64,000 nucleotides of DNA from Phlyctochytrium arcticum (taxonomy: Eukaryota; Chytridiomycota; Chytridiomycetes; Chytridiales; Chytridiaceae), in NCBI GenBank assembly GCA_025602905.1, contig JAHLKI010000004.1:1240001-1304000 (forward strand), in the 5' to 3' direction. A model generated the notes under the pieces. It was given only the letters and a program-made list of their open reading frames with translations, did no database searches and was not told where the DNA came from. This document shows, in pieces, positions 5,575 to 54,544 of the stretch. Every line of letters begins with the position of its first letter. Positions within the stretch are counted from its first letter, which is position 1. The position numbers and the translations under genes are program-made.

Positions 5575-6667
5575 TAACTTTCGCAGGATGTCGTTGCGCG
5601 CTCTTGGAAATGGCTTGGTAAGGGAATCGGCTACCATCTGATCCGTGGGACAGTACTTGAGCACGATCTGGCCATTGTCCACGCATTCTCTTGTGAAGTG
5701 GTATCTGACGTCGATTGCTTTGTCTTTTGATGATCCACCGGGTTGTGAGCCATGGCGATAGCTGCCTTGTTATCCTCGTAGATGGTGATCGGTGCGGGGT
5801 TTGGGTTCTTTGGTGTAAGAAGTGATGCTGCAAAGTTCCGTAGCCACAATGCTTCCTTTGATGCTTCGGCTAGCGCGACATATTCCGCCTCTGCGGTCGA
5901 TTGCGCAGTCGTTCTTTGTCTCTGGGACTTCCACGAGACAGCTCCCCCGTTCATCAGAAATACGTAGCCACTCATGCTTCTTCTCGTATCCGTATACTTG
6001 GCATAATCTGCATCTGAATAGCCGACCACCTCCTTGCTGTTTGCTGAGCCGTAAACTAGCTTGAGGTTTTTGGTGTGTTTTGCGTAACGTAGAATTCGGA
6101 CATCTGCATCTCGGTGCAACTTGCGGGGATTCACCAAGAACTGAGATACTTTGGATACTGGATAGGCCAGATCGGGTCTTGTTGCCATCACTAGGTACAT
6201 CAGACTTCCCACCATGGATTGGTATTCCTTGGTATCGGGTGCTTCCTCCAGCTCATTGTTGAATAATGCTACCTTGTGATCCATTGGTGTCGTAATTCCA
6301 GGAGTGTCTTGTAAGTTAAATCGATTAATGATGTCGTCAACATACTTCTCCTGACTTAGTGATATGGTCCGCTTCTCTCGATCCGTGACGACTTGAATTC
6401 CTAGTATGTAAGACAATTCTCCCATATCTTCCATCTCAAATCGTTCCAAAAAACCGCTCTTAATCGTTTTCATTATGGTGAGATCATCCACGTAGACGGA
6501 TATCATTCCACTAACTTTTCCTCGCTCATCCAACTGTATGTAGAATGCCGAATCGAAGGGTGACGGGGTGAAACTCAGGGAACGCAAAAACTCATCGATC
6601 GTTTTATTCCATAAGCGGGGCGACTGTTTTAGACCGTATATGCACTTGTTCCGGCGAACGAGTAACA
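5575..6667 (-). pseudogene. Copia reverse transcriptase (C-terminal part) and RNase H
   Basis: The frame resumes at RRNKCIYGLKQSPRLWNK and has the RT active-site box SVYVDDLTIM, LSYILGIQV, and TRPDLAYPVSKVSQF. The RNase H part shows YSDADYAKYTDTRRSMSGY, VSWKSQRQRTTAQSTAEAEY and YEDNKAAIAMAHNP. The open frame runs to 5631. A frameshift near 5725 disrupts the last ~60 residues, whose correct continuation (VRYHFTRE, VADSLTKPFP) is in another frame. The N-terminal half of RT is at 10902-10625. Confidence 0.85.
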
Positions 6668-6670
6668 ACC

Positions 6671-9600
6671 CGCGGGTCACCGGCGGATTGTGGGGTCACC
6701 GCGGTGATCCTGCTGCGCCTCCTGCGCCACGGCAGAAGTTGACCGCGACTGACTTGTCAACGGGCAAAAGTTGACCGCGAGCGACTTGAAAGAGCGTTTA
6801 TCAAGCGCTTTTTGCCGTGGCGCTTGACAGGCGGTGACCCTATGGTCGCGCGGCGGGTTTTGCCCAGGATCACAGCTGAGTGGCGGTGCACTCCATATGG
6901 CGCACGTCAAAATCCAAACTCCGCAAAAATGTCCAGAGTCCAGTTCCACTGCACAAACACATTACCATTGCACCCGCCCATAAAACACATCTACACACAC
7001 ATAAACTCCCCTACCTACAATTTACTAACAATGGCTAAAAGAGTAAAGAAAGCCGCTGCTGCCCCTGCCACCCAAGTCCGTCCCAACCCGAAAGTCATGA
7101 ATGCTCCGGTCGACCCAGAGCTTCCTACTTTTCCAAACGGAATGCCGCAGACCGCAGGTAGAAGCAACCAACAGCAGCCTCTCCCCCAACTCCAGACTGC
7201 CGGTGCCAGAAACGCTCTGGCGGAGCAAGCCCAGCGACTCTTTGTTTCTGAGCAGTCTCAACTCTTGCGAGCGCCAAACACCAAAAAGGCATACAAAGGC
7301 CCTACAAAAGATTTTAAGGAATGGACTCTGGGCACGTACCGTGTTGAAGGGTGCCAGGGCGAGGTTCTTGTTGGCGGCGTTGTGTCGCATACTCCTGGCT
7401 GCGAGGGATTCCAAGTTTCTGGTGGCAAGGTGCTGCGATTTTTCCAGGAGTTTATGATCCCCCGAGGACTCAAGAGGGTCAAGCGTGATGCTGAAGGCAA
7501 TGTCATCTCGAGTGCTATCACCCACGGGGTCCTTGAAACTGCTATGTGCGCGTTGGCAAAACTGTGGGAGGTTTAAACGCAGGTGAGTGTGTCGGCCGAT
7601 GACTATGCCTGTACGATAGATCTCCGTCGCTACTGTACCAGCAATGCCCCTAGACATGTGGTAACCTGCATCCTCATCCTCCTAATGCCACTATTCAGGA
7701 GCTTTTGAAGCAGTACAAGCAGAAGAAGGAAGAGCAGCAAGAGGAGAATTTGGAAGACTGCGGGGCCGGAACCATCTTGGACTCGTACACAACCGGAGAC
7801 TTGCTCAACCTCGCAAATTACTTTATGGAGCCACGCGCAAAGAAGAACTACGGCAACGCTCTCCGTGACAGAGCGGGCTTCTTGATCCAGCATTCCTCTT
7901 TCATGCGCGGGGAGGGCGTGAGAGCCCTCGAGCGGAAGCACATGTGGGGACGTGAGCTCGAAAATGAAAGTCCCACGCAATGTTTTGCTCTCGGACTAAC
8001 CAGTAGAAGCGGGAAAACGAATAAAAATGGCCGGATCGAGTCCGTCGGTGCCATGCAACATAAAGATGTTTTTCTATGCACTTTGAATTCAGTCGGTATG
8101 ACTTTTTTCTGGAGGTGGGAGGTCATGAAGGAAGAAGTGCCCAAAACTGCCTGGGCCGATCGCGGCACTTTCTACAAGATGAACTTCTTCAACGTACGCC
8201 GCCCTGGGTCTGGTAAGTGTATGCTGACGTAGAGTGACATTATCAAGTGCTTGTGTTCTCAACCTTCTCGTCGTCGGTGCTGATCAAGAAGAGCAGGATG
8301 AGGACGATGAGGAGGAGGAGGAACTACAGGGGGAAAGACAAGAAGAAGAGGATGCATCACTTGATGACATTGCCGAAGATCTTGGGGACCCTGATATTGG
8401 GGAAGACGACAACCAACTTGACGAAGATGATGATGAGCCCGTTCGCGATGTCAGGATCGGCAAAGGTAAAGGCAAGGCCAGAGACAGATCCATCCTGGAG
8501 AACAATGGAAGAGTCAGAGGGTATCGGCTAATAAGCAAGAGGAAGGTAATGAGGAACATGGTTCGGTGTGATGTGCTTGTGACTGTTTTCTAATTCTGTT
8601 CACACGCCTAAGAAAACCGCACACAAAAACCTGATGTCATACGAAGCCCATCGAAAGATCATCAAAGCAGCTCTCATACATTGCGGAATCAACGCTACCA
8701 AAGTCACCCACCTACCTCGTGGAGGAGGTGCGCGTATGGCGGAGAACCTGGGAGCGGATCCCTGCCAAACCGCCAGGCTCGGAGGGTGGAATAGATCAGC
8801 GTTGGCTCTATCCTACACAAACGATTTGCCCCGGCAAGCCATTCGCGTTATCAATGGCTGGACGAAGGAAGGTGGCAACTTCTTTCTGAAGAGGGCGGTG
8901 GTCGAACCACCTGTGGAACTGCAAAAAATGATTTTCTCGTTCGTAGACGAGCAGTATGAAGTCACAAAGGTAAACCTAGTGATGAAAGTTCTTTTGAAAA
9001 ATATTGGATATTGACCGCCATCGACATTCCACACTCATTCAGGGTAGTGCAACCGTGCGTGGACACAGTTCTGGTAAAGGTTTTTTAGATCTTTTGAAGA
9101 TTCTGCGTGTTATATTGCGCCAAGACTCGGTCATGCTCATCGAGAAATACCCGTCTCATCCGATGTGGTGCCAGCCAATTTGGCAAAGTGCAGAGGATCT
9201 TGCTTTCAGCGCGGATCTGAAAGCTGCTATGTCGACGGCCGAAAACCCAATGGAAATCTTGTTACGCCAAGTCGCCCCAACCATCGCACATGCCATAGAA
9301 ACTACGCGGGATTCCATGATGGCCGAGATCAAAGTTGGTAGAAAGAAGATTGACGATTTGGTAACATCCAATGTTCTTTGCTGTGCGCTGCGCTCATAAT
9401 TCTGACAATAATCCTCTTCATCTCATCGGCAGACTGGACTCTTAGAAAAGCAGGCTGAGGAAGCACGGGTCCAGAAGGACCAATTGACGGCCGAGCTAGC
9501 AGAAATTAAACAGACTCTCCACATGCAAAATCAGCAATGGAGAATGACAATTACGCGCCAAGGTTTGTGAACCAAGACTGGGATTACAATTTGGATAATA

Positions 9601-31015: not shown

Positions 31016-31321
31016 TACACTTCCACTGAATTTAATATCCTCCCTGTAGCTACAAGACACACTATTTTAAATCCGAGAGGGGCCAACGGGAGCTCTGTAG
31101 TTTAGCGGGTGGTTGTAAGTGAGGTGATAAATAAACCCAAATTAAGAATTAAGTGCGATTATGTCATCCAAAGCTTGGCAAGCTCTGTTAATGTTAAACA
31201 CTACCTGTATACTCTATTCTATTCTTACTAGACTTCGGTACCATACACAATAGAAGCGTGTGAGAGGAAAGTGGTGAATGTCTCAGCCTGGTTGATGCAG
31301 TACTTCTTACAGAATTCTGGT
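31016..31321. other. Spacer, no gene
   Basis: Sequence between the HARBI1 remnant and the MULE terminal repeat. No coding or repeat structure noted. Confidence 0.35.
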
Positions 31322-31562
31322 AAACTAGTATGGTACGGGTTATATCTAGTACAGGTACAGGTATATTTTGTGCGGCTGGTACAGGGTACAGAGTAGTTGT
31401 ACCTGTACCAGCAAGGCCTTCCTGCACCACCTGTACCAGGAACTTTCCGCACCACGCGTGGCTTATCCAGAAAAAAGGGGCCGGCATGCGGTCTGGTATG
31501 CTGCACTTGGTAACAGGTTTCTCCCGCCAAAAAGCCCGCCAATAGTTCAAACTTGCGGCACA

Positions 31563-34500
31563 ATGTCAGAACCTCCGACCGGCGGAGGTGCGAGCACCCA
31601 GGTACTGTATGCTAACTTCAAAAAGCCTGCCTATACTGTATTCTGCCAATTATACTAACTATTTATTCTCAAAATTTCCAGATCATTGACGTAGACGATT
31701 ATGATATTCCTAAGAACGAAAGAGTCGCCAGTTGCATCAGGACCACGCAAGTAAGCATTTACCGAAACTGAATCCGAAAGGGCCGAAAGAACCTGCTTTT
31801 AATTGGGCCAAAATTGTGCTAACCTGTATTTCCAAAAATTCTCAGATCATTGATCTTGATGACTTTAAATTTACTCCTGCCAAACATGAAGCAAATGCTA
31901 GCTCAAGCAGCACGCAGCAGGTAAGCTAAACTTTGAGAGAGACTTGTTTTTTTTTGCAAGAATTATGTTAACCATATTTTCCGAAATTTCTCAGATCATT
32001 GATTTAGAGGATTTCACTCGCACCACCAACCAAACGGGTGCCAGCTCAAGCAGCATGAAGGTAAGCTAACCTGGAAAGACACTTGTCTTTTTAATCTTGC
32101 TAGAATTATTAACTATACTGTATTTTCCAAAATTTCTCAGATCGTTGATTTAGAAGTATCTACTCCCACCAGCAATGAAGAAAATGCCACCGGCTCTAGC
32201 AGCACGCAGGTAAGCCACATCCGAAACAGCTCCCTTTATTTTGGTCAGAATTGTGCTAACCATCATTTCCGAAATTTCTCAGATCATTGATTTGGATAGT
32301 CCTGATGTTTTGATCGAAGAAAAATACCGCATTTTTAAGCACACGCTTGTTGAAAAAATCATCTATGCACATGAGCCAATCGAGTATCCCCCAACATCAG
32401 AAAACGGAATTGCCATCCTTTATGATATTAACGGATGGAAAACCACGACCGCAGCTTTTTCCGACATTCAATATCCGATCGGAAACCCTGGAGGACAAAC
32501 GGAGGTTTTCTGCTATTTTTTAAATGCTCAAGTGAGTAGTATCAACGTGAATCTGACGTCTATCGGATGTCTTATTCGCAGTTTAGGTAACAAAAAGCTA
32601 TCGAACCTGCAAGGGGGTGAAGATGTGTGAGCATATTAGTGAGGACATCCGCCAGATTACGCATTCGTCCGTGGATCCCGAAGAGGCTTATTTTATGAAC
32701 ATCGCCCGAACGACAGTCTCATCCAAAGGAAGCTCGATTGATTGTAAAACGAAGGAGTATGTATTAATTATGGAGTGCAAATTTGCAAAAATTACTTCAC
32801 GTCATAGGTATTTTTTTGCTAGACAAACTATGACATGCAAGTACACCAACCAGCAAGGCCATAAATGCACTGGCGGCCACATGGTTTTTCGGAAGTTTTC
32901 GCAGGTAAGAGCGCTCGGCAGATTGGTCGTATGGACGCTCCTACTCACGCGTTGTTTAGCCAATGGTTCTTGCAGGCGGTGCCACCCACTCCCGTCGATA
33001 AATTTTTTCTGGCCTGTAGCGAGTGGCAACCTACCCAGAAGCATCTAGTCGTTGTCATCCCCGACCATTACAACTTGGAGTACCTACGACGACTGGTAGA
33101 GGGCGATGAAATTGTAAATGAGCCTGAAAGCCAGCGTGACCCAACCGATCCATGCGCAACAGTTTTACCGGCGTCTTCCCGTCAAAAGTTTTGTTGTAAG
33201 TACTCATCCAATCTAGTAGTTAGTTGAAAATTCCAGCTAACGAGTTACTGTAGTTGAGTTGCATAAACTGGATGGCGACTGGGAGCAGGGTGCAGTTCAG
33301 CCCAAAACATGCAACGTTAAATTCATCAAAGTCACATCATTGGATCTGGTCGCCTGCCCGTATGTCATGGTCATTTGTATCGGCACTCATAGCCATCGCC
33401 CGCCTCCACCTTTGACCATCCCATTCAACATCCACCAAGAAATTGAAGAACATCTCGCCGGAACGGAGAGTGGCGCGCTCCAGCCCCGACAAATTATTGG
33501 CAGAAAGTTTCTTCAAACGTGGTTCAGGTGAGAATCACAACACGAGTTGTATATGACAGATTTCTGAGTCAGAAATAGTCGTGGAATGCAAACGATTGCT
33601 GCTGAGTTCCATCCAAGTCTGAACCGATTATCGTCGGTGAGGCGTCTTGTATCAGCGGAACGTCGTAGAAGAGATCCGTGGGGCGAGTCTGTTGTTGGGG
33701 TTATGGCCGAGCTTTATAAGCATCAAATGCAAAGGGATGATCCGGACGCTTGTTATATCCGAAAAGCTGGTCAGTGAAGCGCATAGAACGGATCGGCAAG
33801 TTCGTATACTGAAATTGACTACGTGTTACTTTTAAGATTTCACCAGCAACAACAATTTTATCGCCATCTGCGGAACCAAAAAGCAAGTTGAAGCCCTGCA
33901 GAGGAGCGAGGAGATTCTTGTTGACATGACCTTCAAAGGTATGCGTGGAGCGTTCAATGAGTGGGAAGTTGCTATTAGAGACCCCGACGTTGATATCCAT
34001 CCCTCAGGTGAGTACGGTATGACATACAACCTTAGTGCGCCATGTGCTAAGACCGATTTCTCCCAACAGTCTTGGCTTGTGTCAGGATACTCACAGATGG
34101 CCACGATGCTGAGACATACTGTACTGCCAAATGTTTGAACTGATCACTTCTCTGTATCGCCAGGAAACTGGAAGGGGCCTTCGGTTCTCTCACATTCATG
34201 GCGACGAGGAACCTGCCATCAGCGTGATTATGGCCGACCTGGACGGCGGTCAATACAAAGGTTTGGAGTTATTTTTGAAAAAGTTAACTGCAGAAACTAC
34301 CAAGATGACATGGTCTGAGCACCTTTTGCACATTTTCAAATCCTGCGTGGTGCATTTTACAGTAAGAGGTAAAATCCACTGCCAAATGTCCTTCAATTGA
34401 GTTAACTGTTGCTTCAGAAATGTTCTCAAAAATGCAGCTGGTGAAGCCCGCAAGTCTCTCCAAGCCCTAATGGAGTCTATCTGCACATACACCAATCCCG

Positions 34501-35258
34501 ATACAATCGACCTGCTCGTCGACAAAATTACCAACAAAGGTGCAGAGTCTGGCCTGAACCTGGAGGATTGGGCTGAGCTTTATAAGCGGCCCTACATTAT
34601 CGGTTCATTAAATCCAGTTTTTTCCAAAAATTCCGTCGGCCATTTGGACAAGAACAAGGTATTTGGTTCGGTTCGAGGCCTTGCAATCATTCAAACAATT
34701 TTTTGACTGTTCTCCAGCAAACAGAGTAATGCAATCGAAAGCTTGCACGCCGACACCAACCGCGACTTGAAAAATGCCAGTCTGTTACATTGTATTCGGT
34801 CCCGGCACGACTATAACGTGCGGCGTTGGAGGCAGCTTGAGTTTGGGGATCGGACGGGGGTCTACTACAAAGACCGAGTGACGGGTGTGCAGGCAACCAC
34901 CAATAGGCTCAATGTCAACGCTCGCAAGGCTACTCGTGCTCCAGCCAAACCCAAAGCTCCTGCCAAAGCTCCCGCCCAACCCAAAGCCCCAGCCAAGCCC
35001 AGAGCCACCACCACCAGATCAAAGAAGGGAAAGGAGGTGGTCCGGGAGGAGAGCATGCCCACTGCCAGTGCAGCCAGTTCCAGCTTGGCACCCCCCACAT
35101 CTGACGTCAGCGGTAAAGATGTGGAACTCGAGGCGGCCAGAGAGAAAACGCGCAGCTTGGGGCGGGAGTTTTTAATCGAGGAAGAGCTTGAGAAACATCG
35201 CGTCGTGGAAGAGAAACTGGCGGCGATCAAGGCCAGGAATAAGAATGCCCGAAAGTAG
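31563..35258 (+). pseudogene. MULE-like transposase gene with N-terminal SIM-like exon array
   Basis: Early exons: 31563-31601, 31682-31750, 31846-31920, 31995-32060, 32141-32209, 32283-32531, then 32587 onward. Exons 2-6 each open with a SUMO-interacting-like core (IIDVDDY, IIDLDDF, IIDLEDF, IVDLEVS, IIDLDSP), and most close with a Ser/Thr-Gln tail (ASSSSTQQ). The body shows MTCKYTNQQGHKC, VDKFFLACSEWQPTQKH, VACPYVMVICIGTHSH, VDMTFKGMRGAFNEWEVAI (probable catalytic Asp), FELITSLYRQETGRGLRF, HLLHIFKSCVVHF and a SNAIESLHADTNRD motif. The C-terminus has Pro-Ala-Lys repeats and a coiled coil. A one-base deletion near 34130, and uncertain joins near 34400 and 34680, suggest a recently damaged copy. 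Confidence 0.7.
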
Positions 35259-36950
35259 TTGTTATATTTTTTTATTGAATTCCTCACTTTGTCACGTTCT
35301 CTCTCACAGTTACTGGGGTCACCCAGGCTCCATGCAGAGCTGCATGAGCATCCTGTGGATGTTTCAGCCATCGGAGATAATCCATCCCGCGGTTAGTGCA
35401 TTTCAACTACTCCGTGTGTGGATACGTATTGTATTTTTGCATGAGAAGAATAAGGACAGCTCTTGCAATGACAGCCGAGTTGACGGTCTGATGCTGAAAT
35501 CATCTTGCCACCAAGCGCCGACGAGTTGAGGGATCACTATGACGAAGAACCTGTACTCTCACGGCTGCTGTATGGCTGTAAAGGTTTAAGCATAGCATAG
35601 ATTGGCTATTGGATCAGTCGTCCGGTCGAAGGAGGTTTTGGATGCTGCAACGTCTTCGGGGCTTGGATAGGTAAGTCGTAGGTAGTTTTTTGTTGCGGCT
35701 TGAAGGTAGGGAAGGTAGGGAAGGTAGCGAAGGTAGGGAAGGTGGGAAGGTGGGAAGGTAGGTTCGTAGAAGTAGAGTGTTGCTAGAATATCTGTAATCA
35801 TTAGAAATTGTCGCTGTTTCAATGCTAGTTTGGCTGAATATATACAACCTTTGCTCCATTGCAAATATCCACTTTTCGTCCTTGATGCATATTGGTTGAA
35901 GTTGGTGAGTTACTCCAGCAAACAAAAGCGAGGTCCACTGGGGCTCAGCGTCTTAAAAGAAAAATGGAGACGCCCAGATTACGAACACGGAATTGGGAAA
36001 CGAAGATTTGAGGGAAAGACACTTTGATGTACCTGTGGGGGATAGTGGAACGGGTTTTATTCTCTTTGCAAAAGTTTAGGTTGTTATACAGTCCTGGAAT
36101 CGATAGAATTAAGGTTTAAAATTAAAGAATTTTTTAAGTTGAGTCTGATCTTCCCAGTGCGGCGGGATGTTTGTCTTGATTTTCGCGTTGACACTTAAAC
36201 GGCAGGCATATGTTACCTCATTATATAGTGTTTTCCCCATGATTTTTTTCCAAGCGAAGATTTCTCTATGTCTAGGACTTTTTTTGGTCAAGTCCGCCAA
36301 TAATAGTACATTATACAACTTGGAGTTGATTATTGTTAAAGAATATATTTTTTACTTTGTATTAAAAAGGAACCATCCGGTGGGTAGTCTGATGGAAATG
36401 CTGGTGGGTTCAAAGCCCGCGCAGGGAGGATCTACTTTTGTTGAGTAAGGAATTCTTTTTGTAAATCTTTTTTTTTGAATTTGATGAATTTAACATGATA
36501 CATGATTCCACTCCCAAAGGACTCTTCAGACAAGGATAGAATGATATTGATTTCTCAGCTGTGAGTAAACCATTCTCTTGGATTTATTTTTGAGTACCCA
36601 CCCAAAGGTCATTTCTATCTGTCATCCGAATTTGTGAAAGATAGTTGCCGCACAAACATGCAGACCCACCAATAACGAAGTACAATTTACAAAAACTATA
36701 TTAATATTTTCAAAATGCACCCAATCACTCAGGGGTTTCTCGGCTTACCGAAGGATTGTTCCCAATGCTTGAGGAATGACACAGAGGAATCACAGAAATC
36801 ATCACCGCTGAGCTATGAAGATGCAGATGCGCAGCTGTAGTTATTCCCGGTACAACCCGAGCTGGTACAGAAGAGAAACCTGTCATCACCCAACTTGGTA
36901 CAGGCGGCTTGGCTATGGCAGAAAGAGTTGTACCTGTACCAAGTCACGTT
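35259..36950. other. 3' noncoding part of the MULE-like element
   Basis: About 1.7 kb without a convincing gene. It holds the 9-bp minisatellite at 35701-35762, AT-rich stretches, and a T-arm-like hairpin near 36404-36420 that does not form a tRNA. Confidence 0.4.
35701..35762. repeat. Minisatellite, 9-bp unit GAAGGTAGG
   Basis: Roughly seven consecutive units of GAAGGTAGG with single-base variants (GAAGGTAGC, GAAGGTGGG). It is short and noncoding and lies inside the 3' region of the MULE-like element. Confidence 0.9.
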
Positions 36951-36970
36951 GTACCATACTAGTTTGCGAC

Positions 36971-37876
36971 TTACCCCTTCTTACGCCATATGTACTCGCC
37001 GAAGTAACTGACCACGTTCGCCTTGCGGGTCGGCGGCAGGCTCTTCTTGACCACGCGCCAAATGGATTCAATGCACTGGGTATGGGTGCCAGTGACCGGG
37101 TTTACAAAATTACGCTTATGGACAACGGTATCATGCTGATACCCGTGGGATTCGAGGAGGGTGGTGTTGTATGCCGCCCAATCATCGGTCATGATGAAAG
37201 TGCCCGGCAACACATGCTTCAGAATGATGTCCGTCAACGTCTGGGTGTTTTGGTTGACAATGGGAACAAAGAACATCTTGTTCCTTCCGCGTTCTATGCC
37301 GCCCACAACCCACTGCCCCTTCGGGATCCGGCCACGGTTGTATTTCCGCTTGCCGAACATACTTTCGTCGATCTTGACGATCTTGCCCTCTCCCCCAAGG
37401 GGTTCATCAAAGCTGAACTGTTCCATATAGTTATAGCAAACGTTGTGGCAAAGGTTGTACCACTCGACCGTGGTGTTCTTGCTCTTTAGAGTCCCAGTTT
37501 GGATGCCTGCGTCGACTTGCAGGGCCTTCTGTGACCACTTCCAAATCATGATGAGCAACTGCTGGAGGCTTAGGTGGCTGCCCTCGAAAAGTGAATCATA
37601 GCGGATGCTCCTGGATGTGCGGCAAGAATGGCAGCGCCATCTATAGCCGTCGGCGGCTGACTTCTCCGTGACTTTGAGCATGGCGTTTTTGCATAGTTTG
37701 CAGACAGCAATGCGATGGAAGATCTTGTGGTCATAACAAAGCTGAAGGCATTTGTTGATTGTTTCCGTTTCCCGATAGAACTCGCGCTCGTTGGTGATAG
37801 TAATGATTGTCATGATCGTGTTTTGGTTGAGGTTGGTAGAGGTTGGTCGATGTTTTAGGGGCGAAATGCTGGGCAA
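36971..37876 (-). CDS. Merlin/IS1595-like transposase
   Basis: An intact 301-codon frame without introns. The N-terminal zinc ribbon has CKLCKNAM and WRCHSCRTSRSIRYDSLFEG, followed by an HTH-like LLIMIWKWSQKALQVDAGIQ. The DDE domain begins with KIVKIDESMFGKRKYNRGR (first Asp), then WVVGGIERGRNKMFFVPI, GTFIMTDDWAAYNT (second Asp) and TGTHTQCIESIWRVVKKS (His-Glu region), with a YIWRKK end. These are the signatures of the ISXO2-like/Merlin superfamily. Length is typical. It is one of only two transposase genes here that read through cleanly. I could not define its terminal inverted repeats. Confidence 0.9.
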   Translation of the reverse strand: MPSISPLKHRPTSTNLNQNTIMTIITITNEREFYRETETINKCLQLCYDHKIFHRIAVCKLCKNAMLKVTEKSAADGYRWRCHSCRTSRSIRYDSLFEGSHLSLQQLLIMIWKWSQKALQVDAGIQTGTLKSKNTTVEWYNLCHNVCYNYMEQFSFDEPLGGEGKIVKIDESMFGKRKYNRGRIPKGQWVVGGIERGRNKMFFVPIVNQNTQTLTDIILKHVLPGTFIMTDDWAAYNTTLLESHGYQHDTVVHKRNFVNPVTGTHTQCIESIWRVVKKSLPPTRKANVVSYFGEYIWRKKG

Positions 37877-38460
37877 AATGCTGCCATTCTATACGCGTCG
37901 GACAATTGTTGGACGTTGCAATCTGAGGTGGCTTAGAGGCCATTACAGCCGTTTTGGAACACATTTACTGTACCTCCATTCGGACAAATTTATAGCCGCC
38001 TTTACACCCCCAAACCCTTGACGAGTGGAAAACACGAGTTTGATGAACTCGTGCGCCACACGTGGCACGGAACGAGTCGACACGGCTCCATGACTCGAGA
38101 CGTCACGAGATTGCTTACTTGAGGCGGACACGACCGACAAACGCGTGTCGACGCCTCAAACGCTTTGGCAGCGTGTCGACGTTGTGTACAAACTTCGTGT
38201 TTTCCGCACTCTTTCAATTCGTTGCAGACAAGTCGAACTGACCCCAGTTCACCACGGACTGTAGTTAGAATTGTAGGATAACACATACATCATGCAACTT
38301 AGATACAGCCGCCCGCAGTTGAAGAAAATTCGCCATCTCCTTCTCGCGACATTTTGGCAGAACAATACATTCAGTTTTTCAATCATCCTCGTCCACAAAC
38401 ACACACACACATACTACTCTCCTTACTTTCAGCACTCTATTCAGGTCAAGTCCGATCGTC

Positions 38461-50059: not shown

Positions 50060-52150
50060 ATGTCCGGACCTCGCCTTTTATTCGACCAATTGAAGCCCGA
50101 TGGTTCCAACTATACAGAATGGAACACTTGCCTAATGAATGCTATGTACCGAGAATATGCACACCGCGCACTCATTGACAGTTTCCAGCCAAACATTAAC
50201 AAGAAAGAAGACTGTCAACTTGTTGGAACGGCCCATGGCATTCTTTTTCAGCACCTATCCCCGGCCTTGAGAGCCGAGTACCGAACTGAAATAAACCCCT
50301 CGATCATTTATCTCGCCATCCAAAAACAATTCGAAAGACTGATGGCAATTCGGGAACAGTCATTGACGACAGCGTTCGGTAATCTACGATACGACAAATT
50401 CAAGAGTGTTATCGACTACCACACGCACGTACGCAAGCTAGTTTCGCATCTAAATGCCATTCAAAAGACAATGCTCACCTCGGACTAAATGTTAATCAAC
50501 AAAACCATCTCCACCATGGGCACGAAAAATTCCGAAATGATCCACCACATGCGAGACAGAAAGCACGCGACCTTCAATGATCTTGTGAAGGACCGCTACG
50601 AGCAAGAGGAGTACATCTCAGCGGCTCGGGAAACCAAGAAGCGCCGCCCCTTGGGTTCCATGCGAGTCAGAGAGTTAGAATTGTCGGCCGAGGTCAACGT
50701 GGTGGAAAACAACAACCACAACAAAGGAAACAACCAACGCAATAAGAAGTTTACCAAGCCTCGCCCCGCCCCTTATCCAACCAAAGCCAGCTCCAGTGAT
50801 GGAACCATTTGTGGCAAGTGCGGCCGATCCAACCATGCAACAAAGGACTGCGATGCGAGGGGTTACGTGCTGGAGGTCTACCAACGTGCCCTGAAGGCTG
50901 AAGCAAAGATCAAGGAACTACAAGGAAACGCTAAGGCCGCCACCCCTGAGACGAACTTTATGGACATAGGCGATATTGACTCTGAATTATTCGACGTCGA
51001 AAGCCATATGCTGGAAGTCGAGGCCCACCTGCTCGATCAACCCCCCATCGACGATGAATCTCTGATCCTCATCGACTCATGCACGACCCATACCATTTTG
51101 CGAGACCGGGACCTTTTTAGAAGCATTAAGGCCCAATCCACGCCAACCAAGACAATCATTGGAAAAGGGACAATTGCCAAAGGATACGGACGCGCAAACA
51201 TTGCGCTAAACAACGTCCAAATCAAAATCCCTACAGCAATTTATGCCCCCAAGGCATCCCGAAACTTGATTTCCTTCGCGGACCTGCGCAAAAACAAGAT
51301 TCATATGCGCACTGAAGTTCGTGAGGGCGTGGAAGGCCTTGTCCTTACTCGCGAAGGGGGGGTAGAAGTAGCATGGTGTGAGACTCTCCCTAGTGGACTG
51401 TACGTAGCATCCTTGAATAAAATTACTGTCTCCGCGTACATGACTGACCACAACATACATATAAAACGGGAGCTAATCAAGCTTTTCCATGATCGACTGG
51501 GTCACCCCAGAGACACTATGCTACGAAAAATGATCAACTCGACAACTGGAATGCCTTTCCAACAACGCCACCTACCACGACCGGAAGAAAAACAGCTCCT
51601 AGGCCCGTGCGATCCATGCGCAGCAGGAAAACTCATTCGCCACCCCATCAAGACGACTGGGACAAAACCAAAGACGTTCCTGTCGCTCCTAAGCGTTGAT
51701 ACCTGCGGCCCTATCTACCCTCTATCTGGTCCACACAAATATTTCATGGTCATCAACGACGGCACCTTCCATTTTGACAACGTGTTCCTACTACCCTCCA
51801 AGGACCACAGTTTTGCAAAATTAATGGAACACATCCTGTTCCTTCGCACGGAATATCCCGACTATCCAATTCAAAAGATTAGGATGGACAATGCACCGGA
51901 ATTAGCATCGGCTACGTTCGAAAAATTTTGCGCAGGCAACGGCATCAAACTCCAAACATCAGTCAAGTACAAACATGGACAAAACGGCGCCGCCGAAGGC
52001 CTGGTCAAAAGGATCCAGATGCTCGCCCGTCCGATGCTCATGCAGTCAAACCTACCTCTATCCGCCTGGGGTTGGGCAGTTCCCCACGCCGGAGCCTTAT
52101 TAAAGTATCACCTTCCGGCCAAGATACCCAAACACCATACGAATACGTGA
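50060..52150 (+). pseudogene. Copia gag, protease and integrase
   Basis: Gag starts MSGPRLLFDQLKPDGSNY and runs to a TAA at 50486-50488. The same frame continues immediately (MLINKTISTMGTKNSE), so a single in-frame stop splits gag. A CCHC knuckle CGKCGRSNHATKDC lies near 50810. The protease motif is LILIDSCTTHTIL near 51065, the GAG-pre-integrase motif FHDRLGHPRDTML near 51490 with CDPCAAGKLIRH, and integrase shows LSVDTCGPIYPLSG, KIRMDNAPELAS and HGQNGAAEGLVKR (D, D, E). The usual DNGGE is DNAPE here. The frame is lost by a shift near 52110. Confidence 0.85.
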
Positions 52151-54544
52151 AGGGACGCACGCCTGACATCAATCATCTTCGTATCTTCGAATTTGCCGTT
52201 TACATACCCATTTCCAAAGAGACAAGGAACTCGAAGATGGGGACACAACGTCGCCGCGGGATATACGTAGGTTTCAACTCACCGTCAATCATACGCTACC
52301 TCGATATCGCGAGCGGCCTTCCATTTTTTGCAAGTTTCCGCGATTGTGAATTCAACGAAAATGTGTTTCCATGCTTGGAGGACACCGCCAACATCGAGCC
52401 ACTACAACCAAAATCTCGGAAAACAACTTTCGACTTCTCGTGGCCGACACACATTCCTCAATCTAACCCCAATCCAGGACTTGGCGAGAGACTATTGTAG
52501 TTCTGGAAGTCGTCCACCTCAGAAATATCGCGAAACGTCTACCGGATGCATTCGAGGCTACCAAGGAGGTTCTCAACACACACGCTCAGAAGGACAAGAC
52601 TTTCCCCGTCGCGATCAGCGCATATACAGCACCTGCGAATCAGACCGCCAATCCAAAGCGCAAAAGAGGGCGCCCACTTGGGTCCAAAAACAAGAAGTCC
52701 CGCACAGTCCAAGACACGAATGCAGGCACGGAGACAACTCAGGAACCTCAACCGCCCAACGAAACAGCTGCAGTTCATATCCCAGAAGCCGAAGAAGAGA
52801 TCGAGGAAATTCTTTCCCCTGAAGTGATGATGGCTGCAATCAACAACGCGGAAGAAGCAGCGTATCAATTCGAAAACGACGTCCCGATTCCAAAGACATA
52901 TCAGGAGGCCGTCAACTCACCACAAGGAAAGCAATGGAAAGAGGCCATTCATGCCGAGCTCAGGAGTTGCATTCGGAGTGGTGTATTCAGAAAGCCACAA
53001 GAAACACCTCCCGGCATTAGGCCACTGCGTCCGAAATGGGTTTTCGCCGTGAAGAGGAATGCCGACGGCGACATAGTCAGATTCAAAGCCAGATTGGTGA
53101 TTATGGGAAATCGTCAGGTGGAAGGAATTGACTACACGTTCACCTATGCCCCCGTCATCGACTCAACAACATACCGCTGGCTCATCGCTTTCACAGTTCA
53201 GAATCTTCTAGTCATGCATCAGATGGACGTAGTCTCTACGGCAATTTACAAGAGAAAATATTCATGACTGTCCCCGAGGGCCTAACCACACAAGCGAGCA
53301 AACCCAATACAAGCATACAACTGGTTCGCGCGGTATATGGACTAAAGCAAGCCGGGCTGGTATGGTACAAACGACTATCCAAATACCTAATCAAACATGG
53401 TTTCGTAATATTGCCTCGATGCCCGTGCGTGTTCATCTATCGCGACAGATCCACTTTTGCAGTCGTATCCGTATACGTAGACGACATTAACATCATCGGA
53501 ACAACAGCCTCAATCAAAAAAGCAACAGCCCTCCTCGCCAGTGAGTTCGAGATGAAACAATTGGGCCAAACAAGCTTCTGCATCGGCCTACAAGTCGAAT
53601 ACAAAGCAGAAGGAGTCCTCGTCCACCAAACAACATACATCCGGCGCATGCTGAAGCGATTCAACATGCAAGATGCCACAGTCCAAAAGTACCCCATGGT
53701 TGTGCGACGCCTTACAGCTGACCAGGACCATTTGCGAGCGGCAGAACCAATGGAGGACATCTTGGGGGAAGAGTACCCATACTTCTCAGACATAGGAGCC
53801 CTGATGTACCCGTCCATCATGACGCGTCCCGACATCTCGTTTGCGGTAAGCTGCCTTGCGCGGTTTTCTCACGCTCCAACAATCAGACATTGGAAGGCCG
53901 TCAAACACCTGATGAGATATCTGCGGTACACAGAGGACTTGGGGTTACTCTTCCGCTGGCCCCATAGACGGTCTGCTGCTCAGGGGGAGGACACAGACAT
54001 TGATGGCAGCCGTAGATGTTCAAACAACGGACTTGTAGGTTTCGTCGACGCTGGATACCAATCAGACACATCCAGATGTAAGTCACAATCAGGCTATGTT
54101 TTTACGTACAATGGTACTGCAATTTCTTGGCGTTCTACAAAACAGACCATTGTTGCCACATCCTCCGCGGAGGCGGAAATCATTGCACTGGACACTGCCG
54201 CTAAGGAATGCATTCACCTACGCGAAACCACTTCTTGGATCAACACAACGTGCGGTCTCCCAGCAACAAAGGAACCAACAATCATGTACAAAGATAACCA
54301 AGCTGTTATTGCCCAGATGAAAGCAGGCTACATCAGAACTGAAAGGATCAAGCACATCGACCCGAAGTATTTCCATACGAAGGAGCTCATCGAATCAAAG
54401 CAAATTGACATCCAATACGTCTCTTCAACAAACAACCTTGCGGACATTTTCACCAAAGCGGTCAACTCTACTAAGCATTGGAAATTACTTCCCAGGCTTG
54501 GAATGGCTCGGCTCTCATCACTATCTGAACACGAGGCACCCTAG
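52110..54544 (+). pseudogene. Copia integrase tail with AT-hook, RT and RNase H
   Basis: Frame two (52110-52500) gives the integrase tail YEYVKGRTPDINHLRIFE and GIYVGFNSPSIIRYLD. After a shift near 52490 the linker carries an AT-hook-like KRKRGRPLGSKNKK near 52660. RT begins with TYQEAVNSPQGKQWKEAI and PKWVFAVKRNADGD. Motif A is damaged near 53230: MDVVSTAIYKRK replaces the expected MDV.TA.LYG because of a small frame-disrupting deletion. The frame from 53264 has VRAVYGLKQAGLVWYKRL, SVYVDDINIIG, MTRPDISFAVSCLARF and RNase H (GFVDAGYQSDTSRCKSQSGY, SSAEAEIIALDTAAKECI, NNLADIFTKAV), ending at 54544. Confidence 0.85.

Follow-up and report, generated by a model that had tools for sequence, protein, structure and literature searches.

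SUMO-interacting motifs (SIMs) have an aliphatic hhXh (or hXhh) core of I, V or L together with an acidic flank. According to a review (PMC8616421), binding is strengthened by adjacent phospho-serines, affinity is usually micromolar or sub-micromolar, and many predicted SIMs are likely not real. SIM-like strings are degenerate. In RNF4, several closely spaced SIMs lie near the N-terminus, and repeated SIMs of this kind give avidity for poly-SUMO or, alternatively, network and condensate formation (PMC12751080). Transposable elements have also been linked to SUMO. Ulp1 SUMO-protease domains occur in Mutator and Ginger1 elements, with the ubiquitin pathway proposed to be widely involved in transposition (PMC2836005), and Kaonashi/KIU are Mutator-like elements (MULEs) that carry Ulp1 (PMC13317346). 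For HIV-1 integrase, non-covalent binding of SUMO by way of SIMs has been reported (PMC6446281), and the Ty5 integrase binds the host chromatin protein Sir4, an interaction that steers integration (PMC6394760).

The locus described here lies in a window of 64 000 nucleotides, the whole stretch of DNA that was analysed (contig C4:1240001-1304000 of the 31.5 Mb Phlyctochytrium arcticum assembly), and the gene at 31563-35258 of this window corresponds to the public protein DFS34DRAFT_646873 (P0001, 889 aa). P0001 and its paralogue P0002 resemble SUMO-targeted ubiquitin ligases such as RNF4 in having closely spaced SIM-like motifs at the N-terminus. Unlike RNF4, they have no RING domain by Pfam (0 families in either protein), carry one motif per duplicated exon-intron unit and are transposase-like. 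They share with the Ulp1-carrying MULEs (Kaonashi/KIU; melon, rice, hydra) and with Ginger1 the putative tie between a transposon protein and the SUMO system (PMC2836005, PMC13317346), but those elements bear a SUMO-cleaving enzyme domain, whereas the motifs here are putatively SUMO-reading and Pfam found no Ulp1/C48 protease domain in P0001 or P0002 (0 families). HIV-1 integrase is described as having separate single motifs (PMC6446281), in contrast to the repeated N-terminal array seen here, and Ty5 integrase differs in its partner, which is Sir4 and not SUMO, with no tandem array described in the part of that paper available (PMC6394760). Open-licence PMC literature, covered in part by titles and abstract openings, yielded no SIM array in a transposase and, for DNA transposases, no SIM-like array built from duplicated exons.

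Structure of the exon array

The features of the array, in window coordinates, are as follows.

31563..31601, + strand: exon 1, MSEPPTGGGASTQ, phase-0 end, same in P0001
31602..31681, + strand: intron 1, donor differs from that of the paralogue through an inserted TACTGTA
31682..31750, + strand: exon 2, core IIDVD (31682-31696)
31751..31845, + strand: intron 2, donor CAA/GTAAGC, CTAAC with its A at -24, acceptor CAG
31846..31920, + strand: exon 3, core IIDLD
31921..31994, + strand: intron 3
31995..32060, + strand: exon 4, core IIDLE
32061..32140, + strand: intron 4, branch-point A at -29
32141..32209, + strand: exon 5, core IVDLE
32210..32282, + strand: intron 5
32283..32531, + strand: exon 6 (249 nt), core IIDLD followed by the conserved N-terminal domain (EYPPTS...IQY...) common to family copies

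The exon array is read directly from the DNA. The original prediction had five exons, starting at 31682, 31846, 31995, 32141 and 32283, each open with I-[IV]-D-[LV]-[DE] at the splice acceptor, and all five starts are exact, the cores of exons 2-6 running IIDVD, IIDLD, IIDLE, IVDLE and IIDLD. It also described five successive exon units; four are indeed small phase-0 cassettes, while at 32283 the main exon of 249 nt begins. Exons 1-5 measure 39, 69, 75, 66 and 69 nt and every one is phase 0, so that a unit, being a multiple of three, could be gained, lost or skipped with the reading frame intact. The Ser/Thr-Gln tails that were predicted for the exons fail in exon 4, which ends in Met-Lys instead. 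T-Q immediately precedes the core at three of the five junctions, and exons 3, 4 and 5 each have a Ser-rich stretch close to their end, ahead of the next core. Exons 2-4 carry DDY, DDF and EDF at the core, an extension missing from exons 5 and 6, and the motifs are spaced 22-25 residues apart in the protein.

The five introns are 73-95 nt long, with CAG acceptors and CTAAC/TTAAC branch points. Their ends had been claimed to be alike, which applies to three of the five (ending TTTCTCAG), the other two ending TTTCCAG and ATTCTCAG. Four of the five have the donor GTAAGC and four have the branch-point A at -24; in intron 4 this A lies at -29, compared with -24 in the paralogue, which is without the TACTGTA found there in the window copy. 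These signals bear on whether the small exons are spliced as modelled or are an artefact of annotation or reading. The altered donor of intron 1 (GTATGC in the paralogue, GTACTG in the window copy) would favour an artefact, but the public models of the two copies use the same junctions, and of the 11 introns in the two copies 10 have the branch-point A at -24 and 9 have the donor GTAAGC. Furthermore, any of introns 1-4, if retained, would introduce in-frame stops, and no intron of the five has a length divisible by three. Mis-modelled splicing is very improbable. The annotated P0001 has the same spliced N-terminus as the exon model read from the sequence; 3' of exon 6, our own gene model and the public model diverge in places.

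Copies of the array in the genome

At the DNA level the window locus contains a tandem array of 146 bp in 2.8 copies, and the repeat can be followed as five copies of 68 nt spaced 164, 149, 146 and 142 apart, of which one serves as the reference and the other four are 65-78 % identical to it. Six units are present in a paralogue at C3:1289399-1290261 (locus L005; P0002, DFS34DRAFT_590445). An orphan fragment at C3:915826-916113 (L006) contains two, and the donor of the second is broken. Copy number thus varies by direct observation (5, 6 and 2 units across three loci, the last a fragment), and the tandem duplication of exon-intron units, as originally proposed, is borne out. Exon 4 of the window copy resembles a mosaic of two adjacent paralogue units, which is the pattern that unequal exchange would give.

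A six-frame search of the genome with the array peptide (E≤10) returned 13 matches, all within the same three loci, so no donor gene was found and an origin of the array exon from a host gene was rejected. Of 14 exact matches in a pattern search of the genome, 12 fell in these loci; the other two (on C39 and C47) belong to one different repeat. The spliced protein, by the same six-frame approach, gave at least 96 matches in the genome. We fetched 20 further family loci (L019-L038) and, in 16 of them, scanned the region that lies 5' to the conserved domain, omitting L025-L027, which are near-identical to L024, and L031. No array was found in this region in any of the 16, although isolated look-alikes occur far upstream in two (VFDLQ in L023, FLDLG in L030). 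The original prediction was to be refuted by homologous elements in which the core is not conserved; within the two-copy lineage the core is kept, but 16/16 other copies scanned show no array. The next-closest copy, L020, aligns in five blocks of 66-82 % identity and has no protein match ahead of residue 264, which leaves only loose bounds on the age of the array. In this area the L024 group and L033-L036 have coding sequence for one T-V-[DNT]-L-T-T stretch, and that it was the forerunner of the array motif is a guess.

In the protein database, scored for the roughly 8000 candidates sharing most words, a scope in which absence elsewhere is weak evidence, the matches were four P. arcticum proteins and one relative from Rasamsonia. 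The latter (P0005, Rasamsonia byssochlamydoides) is a member of this family at 24 % identity (E 9.9e-22), yet its N-terminus is without the motif array and it has one LLELD far inside.

Probable selection on the repeated core

Relative to the consensus IIDLD (ATCATTGATTTAGAT), the five cores have accumulated nine substitutions, all of which preserve the pattern [VIL][VIL][DE][VIL][DE]. With a single array to work from, a star-like history assumed and the class pattern picked after the data were seen, random placement of the substitutions gave a neutral P of 0.00017-0.00082 over six settings with IIDLD as ancestor, and for five other ancestors the value was lower at every matched setting (0 to 0.0004). 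With the same limits, class-conserved columns numbered 5/5 in the core of exons 2-6, against a neutral mean of 1.80 (P 0.0009); fewer units gave P 0.0018 (exons 2-5) and P 0.02 (exons 3-5). The tails yielded 5/17 such columns for exons 3-5 (neutral mean 5.04, P 0.62) and 2/17 for exons 2-5 (neutral mean 2.18, P 0.69), and the best of 13 five-column tail windows lies in the Ser run (P 0.02, uncorrected). Between units, nucleotide identity is 79 % in the core, 69 % over the final 30 bases of the introns and 39 % across codons 6-10, pN/pS is 0.14/0.49 for the cores and 0.36/0.50 for the tails of exons 3-5, and the leucine codons of the cores vary (CTT/TTA/TTG). Class conservation of the core beside drifting tails is thus a direct observation. 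Because the cores hold their class despite nine substitutions while the tails fit neutrality, the five-residue core was probably selected as protein after duplication, beyond what random tandem growth predicts.

Tandem duplication does recur in this element, as a 123-bp segment elsewhere in the paralogue's gene (L005:5273-5641) is present in three tandem copies of 99-100 % identity, apparently a second and recent duplication. It could accordingly be argued that a duplication-prone element copied an exon that happened to begin with IIDLD, that nothing is bound and that the copies are dead; the lack of constraint since the two copies split, the frameshifts in both and the P of only 0.02 for exons 3-5 fit this account. 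Such growth does not predict cores that keep their class in 5/5 columns of exons 2-6 through nine substitutions (P 0.0009) beside tails that fit neutrality, or the retention of phase and of most splice signals, and we regard it as possible, though rather unlikely.

The same core-conservation data apply if the core is a selected motif for a partner other than SUMO, which would recruit transcription or other machinery; acidic-hydrophobic activation-type, WDR5, clathrin-box and LC8-type motifs are the candidates. Three of the five units (exons 2-4, with DDY/DDF/EDF) read D-[LV]-[DE]-D-[FY], and the T-Q directly ahead of the core at 3/5 junctions could be part of such a motif. However, the aromatic and acidic extension was not kept, being absent from exons 5 and 6 in a region (codons 6-10) that is 39 % identical, and the exon-final Gln is largely a product of the donor consensus CAG/GT. 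The clathrin box consensus begins with Leu, whereas the first residue of the core is Ile. A non-SUMO partner is, in our judgement, an unlikely explanation of the array.

Putative SUMO-interacting motifs and a proposed mechanism

The resemblance to SIMs is upheld at the level of the motif, as an hhXh core is present in 5/5 units of P0001 and 6/6 of P0002 by the consensus in PMC8616421. D or E follows immediately in all units, and the class conservation of the core lends further support to a SIM-like reading. The strict pattern [VIL][VIL][DE][VIL][DE] occurs five times in residues 1-115 of P0001 and not in the other 774 residues, and 0/20,000 composition shuffles of residues 1-115 reached five matches; since the units are duplicates and hence non-independent, it is the core substitution and class-column tests that are informative here, and not the shuffles.

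SP-RING SUMO-ligase domains gave four matches over the cut-off in this genome (best 66.4 bits), which suggests a possible SUMO pathway in the host. The 14 control genomes gave no match, a result on which nothing is built here. Six-frame searches, which introns can defeat, did not find a SUMO gene in the genome. An 8-fold PF11976 array, considered as poly-SUMO, proved to be ordinary polyubiquitin, and six other PF11976 matches were read as ubiquitin fusions, ubiquilin-like genes and one gene with a SUMO-like domain.

Since the array fits the avidity of repeated SIMs, a SUMO tether offers the best mechanism, for a ligand that we infer. A symmetric phase-0 exon was duplicated together with its intron, several times and in tandem, at the 5' end of the transposase-like gene, giving the protein an N-terminal and probably disordered string of five motifs (six in the paralogue). 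The cores, as putative SIMs, would act together, holding poly- or multi-SUMOylated nuclear proteins through avidity and so anchoring the transposase, along with its DNA, at SUMO-rich chromatin or at sites where repair proteins assemble; the valency might be tuned through exon duplication or skipping. The copies now present are decaying. Our tentative preference, given slightly below an even chance, is that the array is a multivalent tether that reads SUMO and belongs to a MULE-like element now in decay. It is doubtful, on present evidence, that the transposase evolved an expandable poly-SUMO reader through tandem duplication of a phase-0 exon with one motif, in which array length, and perhaps skipping, sets avidity for SUMO-rich chromatin or sites of repair and hence where or when the element integrates.

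If true, a poly-SUMO reader would complement the Ulp1 domain in plant and hydra MULEs, which erases SUMO where the array would read it. Several kinds of transposon carry SUMO-cleaving domains whose role is unsettled, and a selected SUMO-reading array in a transposase would suggest that SUMO marks serve as addresses or licences for transposition. The array offers a compact peptide for testing SUMO binding. It also illustrates clearly how exon duplication multiplies a short linear motif, and selection on core versus tail can be read from the duplicates.

The transposase-like gene and element type

The remainder of the gene and the candidate ends of the element are as follows.

31322..31336, + strand: candidate left terminal inverted repeat, AAACTAGTATGGTAC
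32587..35258, + strand: remainder of the transposase-like gene, interrupted, with a zinc-finger-like C..C..HxH segment, DDE-like segments and a tail rich in K/A/P
34938-35006: KAPAK-type repeat of Lys, Ala and Pro, close to the C-terminus of the encoded protein
36951..36965, - strand: candidate right terminal inverted repeat

The candidate terminal inverted repeat of the window copy is only 15 bp long, and no target duplication was seen by eye at these ends. MULEs generate a target duplication of about 9 bp, and a MULE-type DDE domain has a CxxH between the second D and the E. Relatives of 4.5 kb, near-identical and in at least six copies (L024-L028, L032), have inverted ends rich in GGTACAGGTACAGG, with terminal inverted repeats of about 40 bp containing this word in L024 and its kin. 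Among the flanks of seven related copies, judged by eye, four have plain 9-bp repeats (L024, L025, L026, L028), L032 has 8-9 bp, L027 is ambiguous and none was seen in L029. This 4.5-kb relative was likely mobile recently in this genome. VDMTFKG, ADLD, KSCxVHF and NAIES contain plausible DDE/CxxH residues, assigned by eye. No Pfam family was found in P0001-P0004 at E≤10; a single weak Pfam match for P0005 and a single match in the PDB sequence search (E 1.5) were dismissed as chance. The label MULE-like, given to the gene in the original prediction, has partial support, from the 9-bp duplications and terminal inverted repeats of the relatives and from the plausible DDE/CxxH residues, and none from Pfam. 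As the size of the target duplication fits Mutator-like elements while Pfam is empty, we file the gene as a candidate Mutator-like transposase, MULE-like and not a proven MULE.

Other mobile elements appear nearby. An ISXO2-like transposase domain (PF12762, 62.2 bits; window 36974-37885, - strand) adjoins the candidate right end of the element, and long open frames at 5631-6695, 50489-52150 and 53132-54544 look, from their translations, like Copia-type retrotransposon proteins. The window seems rich in mobile elements.

Decay of the array copies

Between the window copy and the paralogue, 14/689 intron sites differ (summed over ten introns), with one synonymous and seven non-synonymous changes in exons 1-5 and two synonymous and ten non-synonymous changes in exon 7. 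No constraint is evident after the split of the two copies. The eight changes in exons 1-5 all fall outside the cores; a simple proportion puts the chance of this at about 0.19. In the paralogue, exons 6, 8 and 11 have gaps of 2, 4 and 7 bases, and further gaps of 1 and 11 bases follow, and the window copy has two 5-base insertions in its later coding sequence relative to the paralogue.

34117..34123, + strand: TACTGTA insertion relative to the paralogue, coding, reading frame changes
34358..34364, - strand: second TACTGTA insertion (TACAGTA on the + strand) relative to the paralogue, coding

With frame-shifting indels in both, neither copy looks able to make the full-length protein at present, and the public models seem to bypass some of the lesions by splicing.

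The window contains TACTGTA 27 times, compared with an expectation of 2.8 (0/100 shuffles reach 27), with sites including 31603, 31634, 32116, 34117 and 34358; five of the six sites in 31200-37000 are an exact +5 where the paralogue has a bare TA. By their signature, these +5 insertions at TA look like Tc1/mariner-type excision footprints; no Tc1/mariner element that could be their source was found in the fetched loci. Over the whole genome TACTGTA occurs 4110 times, fewer than the 5751 of a backwards-pattern control, which counts against a genome-wide excess. In the 266 kb of the window and the fetched loci, it is the commonest TANNNTA word (96/725).
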